Source: a virus. Taken from it: a stretch of DNA of 34,160 bases. The position numbers were made by a program, and so were the translations under genes. This document shows, piece after piece, positions 713 to 12,735 of the stretch. The stretch spans positions 1 through 34,160 of IMG/VR virus record IMGVR_UViG_3300012920_008291. One strand, given 5' to 3'. A model generated the notes under the pieces. The model was not told the DNA's origin. It searched no databases and saw nothing but the letters and a program-made list of their open reading frames with translations. How positions within the stretch are numbered: the first letter of the stretch is position 1; the number at the start of each line of letters is the position of its first letter.

Positions 713-942
713 CGCTCCACGCGACCCCAACACGCATAGACGCCCCGTCGAGCGAGTCTGGACGCCGAGAGGCGAGCGTCATATTCCGACGACGCGCAGC
801 GGACGCCGTCGCGCGTGATGATGATGTAGCGTGACCGGCGAGGGAGCTCCGCGACGTACCCGCCGACGCTCGCGCGCTCTGTGAGCTCGACGCACTCCCC
901 CTCGCCTCCGCTCACGCCGAGCCGATACGCGACGCGCATCAT
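709..942 (-). CDS. Hypothetical 77-aa protein
   Basis: A small basic protein whose ATGA start overlaps the stop of the upstream ribbon-helix-helix gene (939-1307), so the two are probably translationally coupled. It has many Arg, Ser and Gly residues, no membrane segment and no motif that I recognise. The middle, around VAELPRRSRYIIITRDGVR, looks like alternating beta strands. Position suggests a partner or accessory of the neighbouring DNA-binding protein, but that is inference from location only. The terS promoter overlaps its 3' end. Confidence 0.55.
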   Translation of the reverse strand: MMRVAYRLGVSGGEGECVELTERASVGGYVAELPRRSRYIIITRDGVRCASSEYDARLSASRLARRGVYACWGRVER

Positions 943-1307
943 GACGACGCACCCGCGACGATGAGCGCGCGGAGCGTCGCGTGGATCGAGAGGCCATATG
1001 TTTGAGCGATCTTGGTGAGCGCGCTCTCGATCGGACCACGAGGGAGCGCGACTTTGATCGTGCGCGTCGTCGTTCCGGTGATCGCCCTGAGCTCTGGGGG
1101 AGCGACGCTTCTATCAACCATGTGTTGATCAATCCGGCTGAGCGTCTCCCCGATCAGGTAACGAATCGCGTAAACCGTCGTCACGCCGTCTGGGTTTTGG
1201 ATCATGTCAGAGATAGTCCGCGCCAACTCTGCGCGATGTGTCTCGATGAGTTCCTCGAGCTCTACAGTCAAACGTATTGTGTAACGCTTCGATGTGTGTG
1301 TCGTCAT
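939..1307 (-). CDS. Tandem ribbon-helix-helix DNA-binding protein (122 aa)
   Basis: I chose the ATG at 1307 because GGAGACACAC precedes it; the frame stays open to 1388, but that extension has no ribosome site. Residues 8-55 fit a ribbon-helix-helix fold: strand RYTIRLT, a first helix, then a helix containing TTVYAIRYLIGETL, like the AIRxLI helix of CopG-type proteins. Residues 82-122 repeat the pattern: strand RTIKVALP, helix IESALTKIAQTYG, turn LSIH, helix ATLRALIVAGA. Ribbon-helix-helix proteins normally carry one module and dimerise; two in one chain is known for TraY of the F plasmid. It lies directly downstream of an array of 16-bp repeats (1395-1555), its likely binding sites. Role could be autoregulation, partition or origin control. 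The fold assignment is by eye. Confidence 0.6.
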   Translation of the reverse strand: MTTHTSKRYTIRLTVELEELIETHRAELARTISDMIQNPDGVTTVYAIRYLIGETLSRIDQHMVDRSVAPPELRAITGTTTRTIKVALPRGPIESALTKIAQTYGLSIHATLRALIVAGASS

Positions 1308-1394
1308 GTGTGTCTCCGTTGGGTGAACTATCGACCAGAGTGATCGACGTAGCGCGATCACCTCAACACGTCCCGACGCGCGAGTCAACGGGTG

Positions 1395-1555
1395 TGTACA
1401 GCGCGATCACAAATTGACGTGTACAGCGTGATCACACATAGACTAATGTGTGTACAGCGTGATCACGTATTAAGCTAATGTGTGTACAGCGTGATCACGT
1501 ATTAAGCTAATGTGTGTACAGCGTGATCACACATAAGTGTGTACAGTCTGATCAC
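1395..1555. repeat. Array of six 16-bp iterons
   Basis: Consensus TGTACAGCGTGATCAC. Copies are at 1395-1410 (one change), 1420-1435, 1451-1466, 1483-1498, 1515-1530 and 1540-1555 (two changes). Start-to-start spacings are 25, 31, 32, 32 and 25 bases. Each unit contains two palindromic cores, TGTACA and GTGATCAC. A degenerate seventh site, GCGCGATCAC, occurs at 1352-1361. Copies 3 to 5 are followed or separated by AT-rich GTATTAAGCTAAT spacers. The array lies just upstream of the tandem ribbon-helix-helix gene. It could be that protein's operator, a centromere-like or origin iteron set, or the terminase binding site. Confidence 0.85.
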
Positions 1556-1677: not shown

Positions 1678-1960
1678 TCTCGACCACCTAGACCACCTAG
1701 CCCCCCCTCTCGCCCCCCCTCTTAAGTGTCCGTTTTATAACGATTATTTTAATCGGGGGGCTAGGTGGTCGAGATTGTGGAGTTCTAGGGAAACATTGTC
1801 CGGAGTAAACAGGAAAAGCGACCATCGAAAAAACGTTCTCTCCGCTCAACTCCACAATCTCGACCACCTAGCCCCCCGAACATCGAAAACACCGAACGCG
1901 TGGGCGTTTCGGCGGGGTGTCTAGCGCGGGGGCGAGGGGGGCGAGAAAGTCTAGCCCCCC
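1678..1960. repeat. CTAGCCCCCC boxes with tandem GACCACCTA units
   Basis: CTAGCCCCCC occurs on the plus strand at 1697-1706, 1868-1877 and 1951-1960 and inverted at 1755-1764. At 1682-1699 the 9-base unit GACCACCTA is repeated in tandem. The longer context TCTCGACCACCTAG is shared by the copies at 1678 and 1858. CTAG is generally rare in bacterial and phage DNA, so clustering is notable. Confidence 0.7.
1755..1877. repeat. Perfect 30-bp inverted repeat
   Basis: Positions 1755-1784 and 1848-1877 are exact reverse complements (30 of 30) with a 63-base spacer. The arms start with GGGGGGCTAGGTGG and end with ATTGTGGAGTT. Immediately to the left, and sharing one base, is a short AT-rich palindrome, CGATTA-TTT-TAATCG (1741-1755). 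This could form a large cruciform or RNA hairpin, or serve as a two-sided protein binding site at an origin. Confidence 0.85.
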
Positions 1961-2586: not shown

Positions 2587-4068
2587 TCAATCGAACAGCG
2601 TCGGCTCGCGCTCCATCGCCTCTCGCTCGCGCTCTGCGGTCCAGTGCGCGACTCTCGCGCGCGCGATGGCGGCGTACTCCTCCTCGCGCTCGACCCCGAT
2701 GTGCTCGAAGCCCTCGAGCGCAGCTGCGCAGAGCGTCGAACCGGACCCCGCGAACGGGTCGAGCACCGTCCCAGAGGGGGGCGTGACCATCCGGACGAGA
2801 TACCTCATAAGCGCGATCGGCTTCACGGTGGGGTGTGTGTTCGCGCGCGGTTGACTCTTGCGCCCTCCGTCACGCATCGCGCCGACTCCGGCGCGATGCG
2901 TATCCCACCCCTCGAGCCCCGCCTCGCGCTCCGCTTTGGACGCCTTGGGCGTGTAGAAGTAGCGCGCGCGCTCGCCGAGCTCGTGGGCGACGTGCTCGTT
3001 GATTACAACGTTCGCGGGGAAGCGTCCCGCGGGCATACATGACTCGCTGTGAGGCATCTTTTCAGATGCCCCTTGTAACGTGCCTCCACCGTGACGGGAT
3101 CGTCCCTCGGGGGCGTCTGCGCTAGCGATGCGCGACGCGTCCACATTGATCGCGCCCGTCCCATGCTCGAGGACACACCGCGCGACAGTCCCTCGCAACG
3201 GCTTCCGCGCGAGGATCGCGGGCTCGTAAGCGGGCTTGAGCGCCGTTCCCCACCCCTCCCATGTACGCGCCTCATCGGTCGCGCTCGCTGTGAGGTCGAA
3301 CGTCATACACTCTCCCCCGACGCTAACTCCCCCCTTCCCCCCGATCCCGCTTTTACCCTCCCCGATCACCTCGCGCTCGAACCACGTCGGCGCGGGTTGC
3401 CCCTTGCGTGAGTTGAGCTCGACGAGTAGGTGTTGCACGCGCGCGGGGACCGCGCTCCACTGTACGCCGAGCACCTCGAGGAGCTTCGGGACCTGATCGA
3501 GCGGGGGAACGGTGGGTTGTTTTCCGTTCGGGGGGACGTCCGTCCAATGTCTCGCCATATCGCCGACCCCGAAGCGCTCGTTAATCATACGATTCGTGAG
3601 CCCCATCTTATCCCGCGTCGCCCTGATCCACGACGTGACCTCGTACACCTCGCTCTGGTCGTCCCGTTGTTTATCGATCGCCTTGCTCACGTTCAACGAC
3701 TTAGGGAACCCTGAACCATAGAGCCACATGACCACGTCCCGCACCTCGAAACCGGCGAGCCGGAGCGCGACGCTCATCAGGTCCTGAGTCCGACTCCCCG
3801 CGAATACGATCGCGTGTCCTCCGGGCTTGAGGACGCGGAGCACCTCGCGCCATAACTCAGGAGGCGGGACCCACGCATCCCACTCGCGCCCCATGAATCC
3901 GCGTCCGGTCGGCTGCCACGTCTCCCCCTCTGACCACGCGCGCAGGCACTCGGCGACGTGCTTCGGGCTCGTGTTGCCGAGTCCGTAAGGGGGGTCCGTG
4001 ACAACCGCGTCGACGCTCTCGGCGTCCATGTCGCGCAATACCTCGATCGAGTCTCCGTGTATGATCAT
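2587..4068 (-). CDS. Orphan DNA methyltransferase (N4-cytosine/N6-adenine type)
   Basis: This 493-aa protein begins with the phage DNA-methylase pattern: catalytic motif IV DPPYGL at 25-30 and, near the C-terminus, motif X-like TVKP (about 414) followed by the S-adenosylmethionine-binding motif DPFAGSGS (about 437-444). The order IV then I is that of beta-class amino-methyltransferases. Between them, after residue about 145, is an inserted segment with RDKMGLTNRMINERFGV that looks like a helix-turn-helix, then GWGTALKPAYEP and ARKPL blocks seen in phage members of this family. No restriction endonuclease is adjacent, so it probably protects phage DNA from host enzymes or marks it. The ATG at 4068 follows GAGAGGACGAC. 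The recognition site cannot be told from sequence. Confidence 0.9.
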   Translation of the reverse strand: MIIHGDSIEVLRDMDAESVDAVVTDPPYGLGNTSPKHVAECLRAWSEGETWQPTGRGFMGREWDAWVPPPELWREVLRVLKPGGHAIVFAGSRTQDLMSVALRLAGFEVRDVVMWLYGSGFPKSLNVSKAIDKQRDDQSEVYEVTSWIRATRDKMGLTNRMINERFGVGDMARHWTDVPPNGKQPTVPPLDQVPKLLEVLGVQWSAVPARVQHLLVELNSRKGQPAPTWFEREVIGEGKSGIGGKGGVSVGGECMTFDLTASATDEARTWEGWGTALKPAYEPAILARKPLRGTVARCVLEHGTGAINVDASRIASADAPEGRSRHGGGTLQGASEKMPHSESCMPAGRFPANVVINEHVAHELGERARYFYTPKASKAEREAGLEGWDTHRAGVGAMRDGGRKSQPRANTHPTVKPIALMRYLVRMVTPPSGTVLDPFAGSGSTLCAAALEGFEHIGVEREEEYAAIARARVAHWTAEREREAMEREPTLFD

Positions 4069-8509: not shown

Positions 8510-10589
8510 CAACCCCCAACGCGTAGCGCTCGCTGAGTTCAACTTTTCGCAGAAATACGCGCGCTATTTACCAGAGCACAAGCGTCGCGAGACGTGGAGC
8601 GAGGCGACGCGTCGAGTGATGACGATGCACCGGATCAAGCTCGGCGAGCGCGCCGAGGAGCTGAGCGTCGAGCTCGAGGAGATCGAGCTCCTCATCAACG
8701 AGCGTCGCATCCTCGGCTCTCAACGCTCGCTTCAATTCGGCGGGGACGCTGTTTTAAAGAAGCACGCGCGCTCGTATAACTGTACGTCGTGTTATGTGGA
8801 CCACGTGGACCGATTCGCGCAAGCGCTCTATTTGCTCCTCTGCGGGGCGGGCGTCGGCTACAGCGTACAGAGGCATCACGTCGCCAAGCTCCCCCCGATC
8901 CTCGACGGCGATACGCTGATCAGTAAAGCGCGCGCCGAGCACGTCATCCCCGACACGATCGAGGGATGGGCGGACGCGTTCAAGGCGCTGATGCGCGCAT
9001 ACACAGAGCTCGAGACCGCGCTCCCGCTCTTCGACTTCTCGGAGATCCGCGAGAAGGGTGCGCCGATCTCGTCGTGTGGGGGTAAAGCTCCCGGTCCTGA
9101 GCCTCTCCGCGTCGCTCTAGCGCGCGCTGAGACGCTACTCAAAGAGCGCGCGGGCTCTGCGTTGCGACCGATCGATGCGAGCGATATCATGTGTATACTC
9201 GCGGACTGTGTTCTCGCGGGGGGCGTGCGTCGCTCTGCGCTGCTCTGCATGTTCTCGGCGGACGACGAGGAGATGATCGCGTACAAGAGCGAGCCGAATT
9301 GGTGGGACGCGTACTCATATCGCGCGCGCGCGAACATCTCCGCGATGATCCTACGCAGCGACCCCGACGCGCGCGAGCATTTCGAGAGGATCTTCCGCGC
9401 GACGCGCGCATACGGCGAGCCCGCGGTGATCTGGTGCGACTCCCTCGAGGTCGCTTATAATCCGTGTGTCGAGATCGGGATGTGTCCGACTCTCATCACG
9501 AACCCCGACGGCGAGATCGTCGACGCGTACACGATCGATATGCTCGAGGACTCACGCCGTTCCGCGTGGGAGCTCGACGGCTACACCTACGAGACCGCGT
9601 TTCAATTCTGTAACCTCTGCGAGATCAACGCGAGCGCGTGGCGCACGATCGAGGACGCCGAGCGCGCGGTGTACCTCGCGACGATCCTCGGCATGATACA
9701 AGCGACATACACGGGGACCGACGGCGACTATCTCGCAGACACAGCGACGCGCGCGATCCTTGAGCGCGAGTGTTTGCTCGGCGTCTCCCTGACCGGCCTC
9801 GGCAGCGCTCCAGAGTGGGCGCGCGAGTCTACGATGCTCGAGCACCTGAGCACGATCGCGCGACGCACCGCCGAGCAGTCGTGGGAGCGCGTCGGTCTAC
9901 CCAAAGCGCCCGCTCGGGTGACGTGCGTTAAACCGTCGGGTAACGCTGCGGTGAATCTCGGATGCGCGAGCGGAGTACATCCGGAGCACTCGCGACGCTA
10001 TATCCGACGCGTCCAAGTACCCGCTAACTCGCCGATCGTGCAAGCGTTCGCAGAGGCGAACCCCCAAGCGGTCGAGCGCTCAGTTTGGAGCGCATCGGGT
10101 GAGGATCTGTGTCTCGCGTTCGCGATCACTGCCCCCGAGGACGCGCTGACGCGGGACGATCTCAGCGCGGTCGAGTTCCTCTCGTGGGTGCGTCAGGTGC
10201 AAGGAACATGGGTTAAGCGAGGCACGCTGAGAGCGGGGAGCGTCGAGGGGCTCACGCACAACGTCTCGAACACATGCACCGTGAACGCGGACGAGTGGGA
10301 CGACGTCGCGGACACGCTGTTAAACGGTCGCGCGGAGTTTGGGGGCGTCTCGCTCCTCGGTGCGTCTGGCGACTACGACTATCCTCAAGCCCCGTTTCAA
10401 GCGATCCGCTTCCCCCACGAGATCGCGGACGACGACCCACATCGCGACGCGAAGATCGCAGCGTATAATCTGTTCTGTCAACTCGAGGCGCAGTACGTGG
10501 ACGTCGATTACTCGACGATCGTCGAGGACGACGACAACACGACTATGATGCTCGAGCCGTCGTGTGCCGGTGGAGCGTGCGAGATCTAA
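8499..10589 (+). CDS. nrdJ: Class II (B12-dependent) ribonucleoside-triphosphate reductase
   Basis: This 696-aa enzyme reduces ribonucleotides to deoxyribonucleotides using adenosylcobalamin and so needs no oxygen and no small radical subunit. It resembles the monomeric NrdJ of Lactobacillus leichmannii. The radical cysteine is in NPCVEI (C323), one redox cysteine in SCYV (about C98), its partner probably in FCNL (C371), and the C-terminal swinging pair in CAGGAC (C689, C694). GGVRRSALLC (241-250), VKPSGN (477-482) and ASGVHPEHSRRYIRR (490-504) are conserved family blocks. Cobalamin must come from the host. The gap between C323 and C371 is longer than in the Lactobacillus enzyme, suggesting an insertion. 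Its stop overlaps that of the convergent transglycosylase gene. Confidence 0.93.
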   Translation: MTIDNPQRVALAEFNFSQKYARYLPEHKRRETWSEATRRVMTMHRIKLGERAEELSVELEEIELLINERRILGSQRSLQFGGDAVLKKHARSYNCTSCYVDHVDRFAQALYLLLCGAGVGYSVQRHHVAKLPPILDGDTLISKARAEHVIPDTIEGWADAFKALMRAYTELETALPLFDFSEIREKGAPISSCGGKAPGPEPLRVALARAETLLKERAGSALRPIDASDIMCILADCVLAGGVRRSALLCMFSADDEEMIAYKSEPNWWDAYSYRARANISAMILRSDPDAREHFERIFRATRAYGEPAVIWCDSLEVAYNPCVEIGMCPTLITNPDGEIVDAYTIDMLEDSRRSAWELDGYTYETAFQFCNLCEINASAWRTIEDAERAVYLATILGMIQATYTGTDGDYLADTATRAILERECLLGVSLTGLGSAPEWARESTMLEHLSTIARRTAEQSWERVGLPKAPARVTCVKPSGNAAVNLGCASGVHPEHSRRYIRRVQVPANSPIVQAFAEANPQAVERSVWSASGEDLCLAFAITAPEDALTRDDLSAVEFLSWVRQVQGTWVKRGTLRAGSVEGLTHNVSNTCTVNADEWDDVADTLLNGRAEFGGVSLLGASGDYDYPQAPFQAIRFPHEIADDDPHRDAKIAAYNLFCQLEAQYVDVDYSTIVEDDDNTTMMLEPSCAGGACEI

Positions 10590-11014
10590 TCGTCCGCGAG
10601 CTCGACCGCGACGCGTAGCGCTTTAACGCGCCGGAGCACGCGTCGCCCGTATTTCTGAGCGCGAGGCCCCGCTCCCGCGTACGCTGTGAGCGCGCGGAGC
10701 TCGTCGCCACGCTCTCGCCTCACGTAGTATTTCAACGCGCGCAGACCCGCGTCGATCTCGTTGCACTCCCCCTCGCGTGGACACCAGTACGTCGGCATCG
10801 CTTGGAGGGGTCCGACTGCGCCGGACGGCGACTCGAGGTCTCGTTGAAAGCGCGTCTCCTCATACGCGACGCTCACGGCGAGAACGGGATCGACGCCCAT
10901 GTCCTCGGCGCGCGCGACGACTTCCTTACACACGAGAATCGCCTCGTGAGCTACGTGTCTGTGTTTGTGCGCGGTGGGTGCGTAGATCATCATTACAGCG
11001 ATCAAGCAAAGCAT
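10586..11014 (-). CDS. Lytic transglycosylase (SLT fold), exported
   Basis: I start the gene at ATG 11014 after AGGATGAATAC, giving 142 aa; the open frame runs to 11098 but that part overlaps the terL ribosome site and start. Residues 1-13 are hydrophobic and may be a signal peptide or anchor. The SLT signature follows: catalytic Glu53 in YEETRF (like the ESGF motif), then SGAVGPLQAMP, then AGLRALKYYVRR and LTAYAGAG. The enzyme cleaves peptidoglycan without hydrolysis, either for host lysis or for wall passage at infection. It is the only minus-strand gene within the plus-strand block, tail to tail with nrdJ and divergent from terL, so it may be separately controlled. Confidence 0.8.
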   Translation of the reverse strand: MLCLIAVMMIYAPTAHKHRHVAHEAILVCKEVVARAEDMGVDPVLAVSVAYEETRFQRDLESPSGAVGPLQAMPTYWCPREGECNEIDAGLRALKYYVRRERGDELRALTAYAGAGPRAQKYGRRVLRRVKALRVAVELADD

Positions 11015-11026
11015 GTATTCATCCTG

Positions 11027-11035
11027 TGGTACGAT
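11027..11035 (+). promoter_or_regulatory. Weak extended -10 promoter candidate for terL
   Basis: TGG followed by TACGAT fits an extended -10 (TGnTAnnAT) without a good -35. It lies 39 bases before the terL ATG in the gap between the divergent transglycosylase and terL genes. Confidence 0.3.
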
Positions 11036-11073
11036 GTTAAAAACCGCGCAACGCATATCACGAGGAGCGCACG

Positions 11074-12735
11074 ATGTCACGACCCGTTTTACCCGCATCA
11101 GCGATCGAGCGTCGAGCGCTCAGCTCCGTGTCGCCCGTATTCTTTGATACGTACTATTGCGGGATGCGTTACGCGTCTCACCGCTCGAACTGGTTCGATC
11201 AACTCGACCGGACATGGGAGGGAGCGCGCGAACAGGGAGACAAGGGGAGGCAACTCGTGCTCGCTCCGCGTGATCACGGTAAAACGGAGGCTGCGATCAC
11301 GTACGCAGTCCGCGCGATCTGTCTAAATCGAGACGTCCGTATCCTCTGGATCTGCGAGAGCGCGTCACAAGCCGAGAAGCGTATGCGACGCGTTAAGGCG
11401 CTCCTGAGATCCGAGCGCATCGTCGCGGATTGGGCGAGCGATCCCGCGCGCGGTTGCACCCCGTTTGAGGACGAGGCGACGCCGTGGACACAAACACAAG
11501 TTTATGTACCGCGTAAGCTCGAGAGCGTCGATCCTACGATCACGGCGATCGGTAGTGGGGGCGCTGTGACCGGAGCCCACTTCGATCTCATCCTCGCGGA
11601 TGACTTGGAAAGTGACATGTCGTGTCACACGTCCGCGCAACGCGCAAAGACTAAAAGGTGGTTCAAGGCGACGGTGCTCCCGATGTTGTCGCGCGGTGGG
11701 CTGATCGCTGTCATCGGGACACGAAAACATTATGATGACCTCTACGGGGACATGATTAACGACCCCTCGTGGGCGCTGATCGAGGACCCCGCGGTCGCGC
11801 AGATGCCGGAGAGCTACGCGTATGAGACCGAGACGCGCGACGGGCGCGAGGTGATCTGCGGAGTCTCGATCGAGGGAGAGGCGCGCGTGCTCTGGCCCGA
11901 GGAGCGCCCGATCGAGTACCTCTTAAGAGAGCGTCGCTCGATGGGGGCGCAGCTCTTCGCGCGTGAGTTTCAGCACCAAGTACAAGACGACAGCGCGAGC
12001 GCGTTTCGGTTTGAATGGCTGAGCGACGCGAAGGCTCGAGGGAGCGAGCTCTCGATGTACGAGATCCCGCCATACGTAGAGCGCCTCGAGATCGTTCAGG
12101 GGTGGGACTTCTCGCTCGTGCAATCGGTACGCGACGCGGAAGCGCGCGACACCGACTTCACGGTCGGGACGACGTGGGCGCGCGACCTCGACACTGGCGA
12201 TCACTATCTCCTCGGGATGTTTCGACGACGAGGACTCACGCCCGCGCAGCTCCGGACCGCTGTGATCGAGGAGTTCCACCGCTTCAGGGGGCGCGTCTCT
12301 TCGATCGCGGTCGAGCGAAACGCGTTCGGCGAGATGCACTACGTCGGGCTCAGGCAATCGACAGACCTCCCGATCGTGCCACACCTGACCACGGGGGCGA
12401 AAAAAGCCGACCCGTGGAGCGGTGTCGCGTCGCTCTCTGTGCTGTTCGAGAACGGGAAGGTGATTCTTCCAAGTCGGACGGAGCACGACCGCCGAATGAT
12501 CGAGCCCTTAATCTCGGAGCTCTGGGGGCTTGGGCGCGAGAAGCACGACGACACGGTCCTCTCGTTGTGGATCGCTCACAGTGTGTTAAGACGCGACCGA
12601 TTTTGTCACAGCTACGTCGATTCGACGGGCGCTATTTATGACGAGCGGGGCGACGTGCTCAACGCGGACGAGGTGGACGACGGCCTCGATATTTGGTGGG
12701 GCGAGGCGTTGAGCGGCAATTACACGACTCACTAA
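11074..12735 (+). CDS. terL: Terminase large subunit
   Basis: This 553-aa protein has the two terminase domains: an ATPase that drives DNA into the procapsid and an RNase H-like nuclease that cuts concatemers. ATPase: variant Walker A APRDHGKT at 64-71, Walker B LILADD at 172-177 followed by Glu179, coupling motif GTRKHYDD at 215-222. Nuclease: D345 in GWDFS, E414 in VERNAF, D492/D493 in KHDDT, the three expected acidic clusters. The start at 11074 follows GAGGAGCGCACG. Normally terS and portal genes adjoin it; here its neighbours are a transglycosylase and tail genes, and the probable terS is near the left window edge. The packaging mode cannot be told from sequence alone. Confidence 0.95.
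   Translation: MSRPVLPASAIERRALSSVSPVFFDTYYCGMRYASHRSNWFDQLDRTWEGAREQGDKGRQLVLAPRDHGKTEAAITYAVRAICLNRDVRILWICESASQAEKRMRRVKALLRSERIVADWASDPARGCTPFEDEATPWTQTQVYVPRKLESVDPTITAIGSGGAVTGAHFDLILADDLESDMSCHTSAQRAKTKRWFKATVLPMLSRGGLIAVIGTRKHYDDLYGDMINDPSWALIEDPAVAQMPESYAYETETRDGREVICGVSIEGEARVLWPEERPIEYLLRERRSMGAQLFAREFQHQVQDDSASAFRFEWLSDAKARGSELSMYEIPPYVERLEIVQGWDFSLVQSVRDAEARDTDFTVGTTWARDLDTGDHYLLGMFRRRGLTPAQLRTAVIEEFHRFRGRVSSIAVERNAFGEMHYVGLRQSTDLPIVPHLTTGAKKADPWSGVASLSVLFENGKVILPSRTEHDRRMIEPLISELWGLGREKHDDTVLSLWIAHSVLRRDRFCHSYVDSTGAIYDERGDVLNADEVDDGLDIWWGEALSGNYTTH

Follow-up and report, generated by a model that had tools for sequence, protein, structure and literature searches.

In the stretch of DNA analysed here (the window, a whole linear IMG/VR virus record of 34,160 bp), a gene for a 122-residue protein and a six-copy repeat array directly upstream of it behave as one unit, as seen in three alleles and one absence: the array keeps a constant position, is present or absent jointly with the gene, and diverges jointly with it against a conserved background. 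We postulate that the protein is a sequence-specific DNA-binding protein and that the six repeats together form the multi-site operator cognate to it, through which it would autoregulate its operon, the two forming a pair private to each phage lineage. We put the probability of this reading at about 55%.

Genomic setting of the array

The record is a fragment of a tailed phage and encodes, besides the large terminase (TerL), baseplate J, a DNA polymerase, a helicase and a primase-like protein, together with nucleotide-metabolism genes (ribonucleotide reductase, dCMP deaminase and a thymidylate-kinase-like protein). A contractile tail is suggested by the baseplate genes and by a sheath-like gene in a relative (L066 5555-7519, from our reading of the ORF). 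No close cultivated phage was found in the phage collection, where the best TerL match was ~26% identical and neither the small terminase subunit (TerS) nor the 122-residue protein had a match; Rfam and tRNA searches were empty. The operon of interest runs leftward from the 122-residue gene through a 77-residue ORF to the small terminase gene (Table 1). The small and large terminase genes lie ~10 kb apart on opposite strands, in the relatives too, an arrangement unusual for tailed phages.

Table 1. Features at and around the repeat array, in window coordinates
Feature	Position	Strand	Remarks
Small terminase subunit (TerS)	about 1-665	minus	runs off window start; phrog_4102, E=2.7e-5; 94% identical in close relatives
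77-aa ORF	709-942	minus	function not assigned; overlaps end of the 122-aa gene; 88-89% identical in relatives
122-aa probable tandem ribbon-helix-helix DNA-binding protein	939-1307	minus	first gene of the operon; three alleles aligned
Inverted repeat TGATCG-N8-CGATCA	1341-1360	none	between promoter and start codon; invariant columns in all three phages
Putative operon promoter	1360-1388	minus	TTGACT at 1388-1383, 17-nt spacer, weak -10 TGAGGT/TGAGAT
Six-copy array of TGTACAGCGTGATCAC	1395-1555	none	directly upstream of the 122-aa gene
Array cores	1395-1410, 1420-1435, 1451-1466, 1483-1498, 1515-1530, 1540-1555
Spacer stretch with inverted repeat CTAACCTTCGGTAATGATCGAATATCGAATGTTAG	1624-1663	none	core invariant in all three phages
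Origin-like element	1679-1960	none	ten 10-bp iterons CT(A/C)G(A/C)CC(A/C)CC, order ++++ -- ++ - +
Inverted-repeat arms	1753-1784 / 1848-1879		perfect, 32 nt
Large terminase (TerL)	11074-12735

The array and the putative promoter

The sequence-only reading had described six repeats spaced 25, 31, 32, 32 and 25 bases apart, each with the palindromic cores TGTACA and TGATCA, and our analysis agrees. Four copies match the 16-mer exactly, one has a single mismatch and one has two; the centres of the two cores lie 9 bp apart in the consensus copy, and the first copy reads CGATCA. Taken as a whole, the unit also forms a single imperfect palindrome, GTGTGtaCAgcgTGatCACAC. With up to three mismatches allowed, eight sites occur in the window against 0.26 expected from shuffles, and none of 100 shuffles reaches eight. 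No dispersed copies were found, each array word occurring at this threshold only in its own array, bar one or two weak sites in the window. The proposed alignment of the copies along a single helix face does not extend to the sister arrays, which use spacings of 23-24 and 33-34 bp, and on that ground we reject such phasing.

Thirteen other viral contigs contain the exact 16-mer, each as a single copy, which we judged close to chance for a collection of this size. TGATCA is itself frequent over the whole window (27 observed, 11.3 expected; few of these within the array) and is found 25 times in the relative G002 (19.1 expected). A link between GATC and the methyltransferase encoded only in the window was set aside, GATC being not markedly over-represented (390 against 350 expected), and remains a lead.

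On its promoter side the array abuts TTGACT, which is conserved in all three phages and is a candidate -35 box for the operon promoter; a consensus promoter scan did not find this putative promoter, and its -10 box is poor. The inverted repeat downstream of it may be an operator; it stays constant where the array varies, and for that reason a second regulator may bind there.

Co-occurrence of gene and array in related phages

Searches of IMG/VR with TerS and TerL gave the close relatives G002 (3300035145_002598, 52,785 bp), G001 (3300042731_004716, identical to G002 over the 16.5 kb compared) and G003 (3300020054_000719). Their TerS is 94% identical to that of the window in each case, and TerL is 98% identical in G001 and G002. 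The gene is thus carried by four IMG/VR contigs of three kinds, and in all four the array stands at the same place. Its word differs by kind, being TGTACAGCGTGATCAC in six copies, GTGGTACCGCGCGCCCC in eight (spaced 23-24 and 34 bp) or GTGTCACCACAGTGACAC in eight (spaced 24 and 33 bp). No related phage was found to carry the gene without repeats upstream, and the more distant G004 (TerL 72%, TerS ~42% identical) has neither gene nor array, its iteron element lying directly beside TerS. The earlier view of protein and repeats as a dedicated cis-acting module is therefore well supported, since gene and same-place array co-occur, are co-absent and change together.

This comparison covers three alleles in the collections searched, plus one absence. 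No further carrier turned up when viral contigs were scanned with TerS and with two conserved stretches, the spacer DNA and the C-terminal peptide, or when species genomes were scanned with the RHH alignment and the C-terminal peptide. Two sets of repeats were rejected as matching arrays: those of L064 (79-166) read as coding Thr/Glu repeats, and those of L058 lie in frame inside a coding gene. The latter (483-589), from a distant TerL relative, are six 21-bp repeats with GGGACACAGTGTCCC in frame (GGDTVSL repeated), possibly an in-gene iteron array of a replication protein.

A probable tandem ribbon-helix-helix protein

The open reading frame is as first read, with 122 codons on the minus strand from an ATG at 1307, and a Shine-Dalgarno-like AACGGAG upstream. 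That its product holds two ribbon-helix-helix (RHH) modules in one chain is plausible as an interpretation of the residue pattern and of weak profile matches. A strand-helix-helix pattern fits each half, and there is a borderline Arc-like PHROG match (phrog_582, E=0.03); searches against Pfam, NCBIfam, plasmid and PDB sequences gave nothing significant. We also aligned the protein to a profile of ten Arc/Mnt-type proteins, judging significance by 200 column shuffles. The N-terminal module fell in register with the Arc beta strand (QFNLRWP against RYTIRLT), a fit matched by 1 of 200 shuffles; the C-terminal module aligned on Arc helix A and the turn, a fit matched by 14 of 200. The mutual similarity of the two halves was not significant, and AlphaFold (AF2, three-sequence alignment) returned four to five helices and no strand at a pLDDT of 45-46, too poor to judge the fold.

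Arc and Mnt of phage P22 (immI region) are RHH proteins, likewise small and phage-encoded; the 122-residue protein would share with them DNA binding, the Arc-like beta strand and an operator beside its own promoter. They differ in that each chain has a single RHH module and each protein a single annotated operator, against six to eight sites and probably two modules here, and the homology is borderline. TraY and VirC2 are tandem RHH proteins, the layout proposed here, but show no sequence match to the 122-residue protein, and their conjugation or T-DNA context is absent here.

In the three-allele alignment the N-terminal residues and the C-terminal 17 residues are conserved, and the middle and the second strand are variable. 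Should the predicted register hold, R8, T10 and R12 point outward from strand 1 and are invariant in the three phages, and the outward, predicted DNA-facing residues of strand 2 are T/K/A in the window, T/K/H in locus L018 and T/A/H in locus L017.

Joint divergence of protein and array

Between L017 and L018, the loci of the two closest relatives, the divergence has sharp limits. Identity is 99.7% over the origin-like region, 92.7% over the leader and 90.6% over the spacer, against only 50-61% for the arrays (60-bp windows). The 122-residue protein is 87% identical and is the most diverged small gene at the locus, part of its divergence falling outside the predicted reading strand. The predicted second strand has two replacements, L77T and K78A (L018 numbering), and 4 of 20.5 non-synonymous changes fall in these eight codons, with none in the last 34.

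Between the window and G002 the protein is 55% identical, whereas the other fully shared proteins are 75-98% identical, the exceptions being the tail fibre (70%) and a transglycosylase (32%). Over the least conserved 30 residues of the 122-residue protein identity falls to 20%, whereas in replication and packaging proteins the corresponding minimum is at least 60%. The dN/dS ratio is 0.35-0.48 for this gene and 0.08-0.22 for the next two; as it stays below 1, it indicates relaxed or diversifying change and is no proof of positive selection. The transglycosylase (10586-11098 in the window) lies at the same place in G002 between neighbours that are 90-98% identical, a gene replacement.

The left part of the repeat units, TTGACGTG, is common to the L017 and L018 units and to one copy in the window, and the remainder differs. 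From this the arrays would seem to descend, with divergence, from a single array and not to be unrelated elements. A constant strand 1 and a variable strand 2 in the protein would parallel this constant left and variable right part of the unit, a testable idea.

An origin-like iteron element beside the array

At 124 bp from the array lies an origin-like element whose iterons surround segments of low GC content (37-47%; the window as a whole has 61.5%). The inverted repeats noted earlier as adjoining the array are borne out here as a perfect pair (Table 1). In L018 the element (1279-1561) has nearly the same order, with TCGACACC as its word (++++ -- ++ --- +) and one copy reading TCGCCACC; the word TCGACACC is common to L017 and L018. 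G004 has a similar order (L064 2348-2614; +++ -- ++ ----) with the word AACTACAT. The element thus repeats the theme of a fixed layout with changing words, up to a phage with TerS only ~42% identical. It adjoins TerS or the TerS operon in all three phages and is a likely origin or packaging site; GC skew marked no origin. No comparable cluster of 11 iteron copies was found in the other loci compared. Array and iteron modules vary independently, because the arrays of L017 and L018 differ and the iteron element is common to both.

A larger relative (L052 and L053, 549-800) has CCGCTACC seven times in the order --- ++++, possibly another element of this iteron type. The flank of the origin-like element is an exchange hotspot, with a DNA methyltransferase in the window (2587-4068) and a serine recombinase in L018/G002 (L018 about 2006-2995), the recombinase being present in G001 and G002 only.

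Functional interpretation of the array

We infer that the 122-residue protein, probably with two RHH modules per chain, binds the array beside its own promoter. Binding would coat this stretch co-operatively at the head of the operon that contains the small terminase gene, array occupancy would set expression of the protein itself and of the operon, and the bound array might also act on the iteron element 124 bp away. Between close relatives the DNA word would have diverged together with the reading surface of the protein, presumably for a selective reason, which would leave each phage lineage with a private protein/array pair. We prefer a multi-site operator because the array abuts the conserved TTGACT, a possible -35 box; six to eight sites are, against this, many for simple autoregulation.

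By analogy, such private pairs resemble phage immunity repressors or satellite replicons. In Cluster A mycobacteriophages, immunity specificity is set by a repressor and its stoperators, which diverge jointly from one related phage to another (PMC6550527). Protein and operator-like sites diverge together between relatives here as well, although stoperators are dispersed over the genome and all sites here lie in one array.

The sequence-only reading had offered origin, partition or packaging control as functions of the module. Control of replication is unlikely, though the most probable of the three: the complex of RHH protein and array would form an accessory part of the origin that helps or blocks initiation, and would diverge since co-infecting relatives or satellites exploit the origin. 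The proximity is real, because an iteron-rich, low-GC element of conserved layout lies 124 bp away, and a precedent exists in PLE satellites, where the DNA-binding part of RepA covaries with the local origin iterons and the rest of RepA is conserved (PMC8263062). RepA is, however, a replication initiator, whereas the 122-residue protein has no recognisable replication function. Further, L017 and L018 have different arrays with the same origin-like iterons, G004 has the iteron element with neither array nor protein, and the identity of the element as an origin is putative.

A more speculative proposal, to which we give somewhat less weight, is an ATPase-free compatibility module in a lytic phage. 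The tandem RHH protein and its private array would mark the genome beside the origin and the terminase operon, and a matching co-infecting sibling alone would be properly expressed, replicated or packaged.

Partition or segregation seems slightly more doubtful still. In this reading the array would act as a centromere to which the protein binds, either in the manner of ParG/ParR systems or alone, as StbA of plasmid R388 does with the stbDRs. A direct-repeat array upstream of a small RHH-type gene, whose product may regulate its own operon, is the layout described for plasmid centromeres and their binding proteins (ParG, omega, ParR/parC; PMC5016525), and the position of our array would fit a repeat array of this kind near its own promoter. 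R388 supplies the precedent for a single DNA-binding protein on an array at its own promoter, with an ATPase that is not needed for stability (PMC3098194), and in two relatives a serine recombinase adjoins. Unlike the ParG, omega and ParR systems, the phage locus has a terminase operon, a lytic-type gene content and no motor ATPase that we could find. No ParA (AAA_31) match was obtained in five records, with positive controls at 14/14; StbA_N (StbA/ParM-type) and ALP_N were negative in the window and the 52.8-kb relative, with weak controls, that for StbA matching nowhere. No tyrosine integrase was found in the five records either, and the phage encodes a polymerase and a primase-like protein of its own, along with nucleotide-metabolism genes, as is frequent in lytic phages. 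StbA, for its part, is a plasmid protein with no shown relation to the 122-residue protein, 9-bp repeats and no terminase. Partition is therefore less likely, with no ParA or actin-like ATPase detected, although StbA does stabilise R388 with no help from the ATPase.

It is very unlikely that the repeats are not bound by the protein at all, forming a neutral, fast-turning-over tandem array beside a protein that diverged through a coincidence of recombination. The near-identical units within an array do show recent homogenisation, but arrays here are always found with the gene and never without it, at the same position and with operator-like units, and the joint divergence is confined to gene and array. 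Least probable is direct recognition of the array by the small terminase as a pac-type site: TerS lies in the same operon, ~730 bp away, but it is nearly identical where the arrays differ most (dN 0.016 between L017 and L018, whose arrays differ throughout), G004 has TerS and no array, and the iteron element, present in all, is the better candidate TerS site.

Implications for related phages

A multi-site operator private to each lineage remains our preferred reading, and the locus supplies, from phages otherwise closely related, three naturally matched pairs, each a small DNA-binding protein with a repeat array. Should binding be confirmed, these pairs could show which residues read which bases, and could test whether competition among related phages drives private specificities. 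A compatibility module, if true, would drive rapid lock-and-key diversification.
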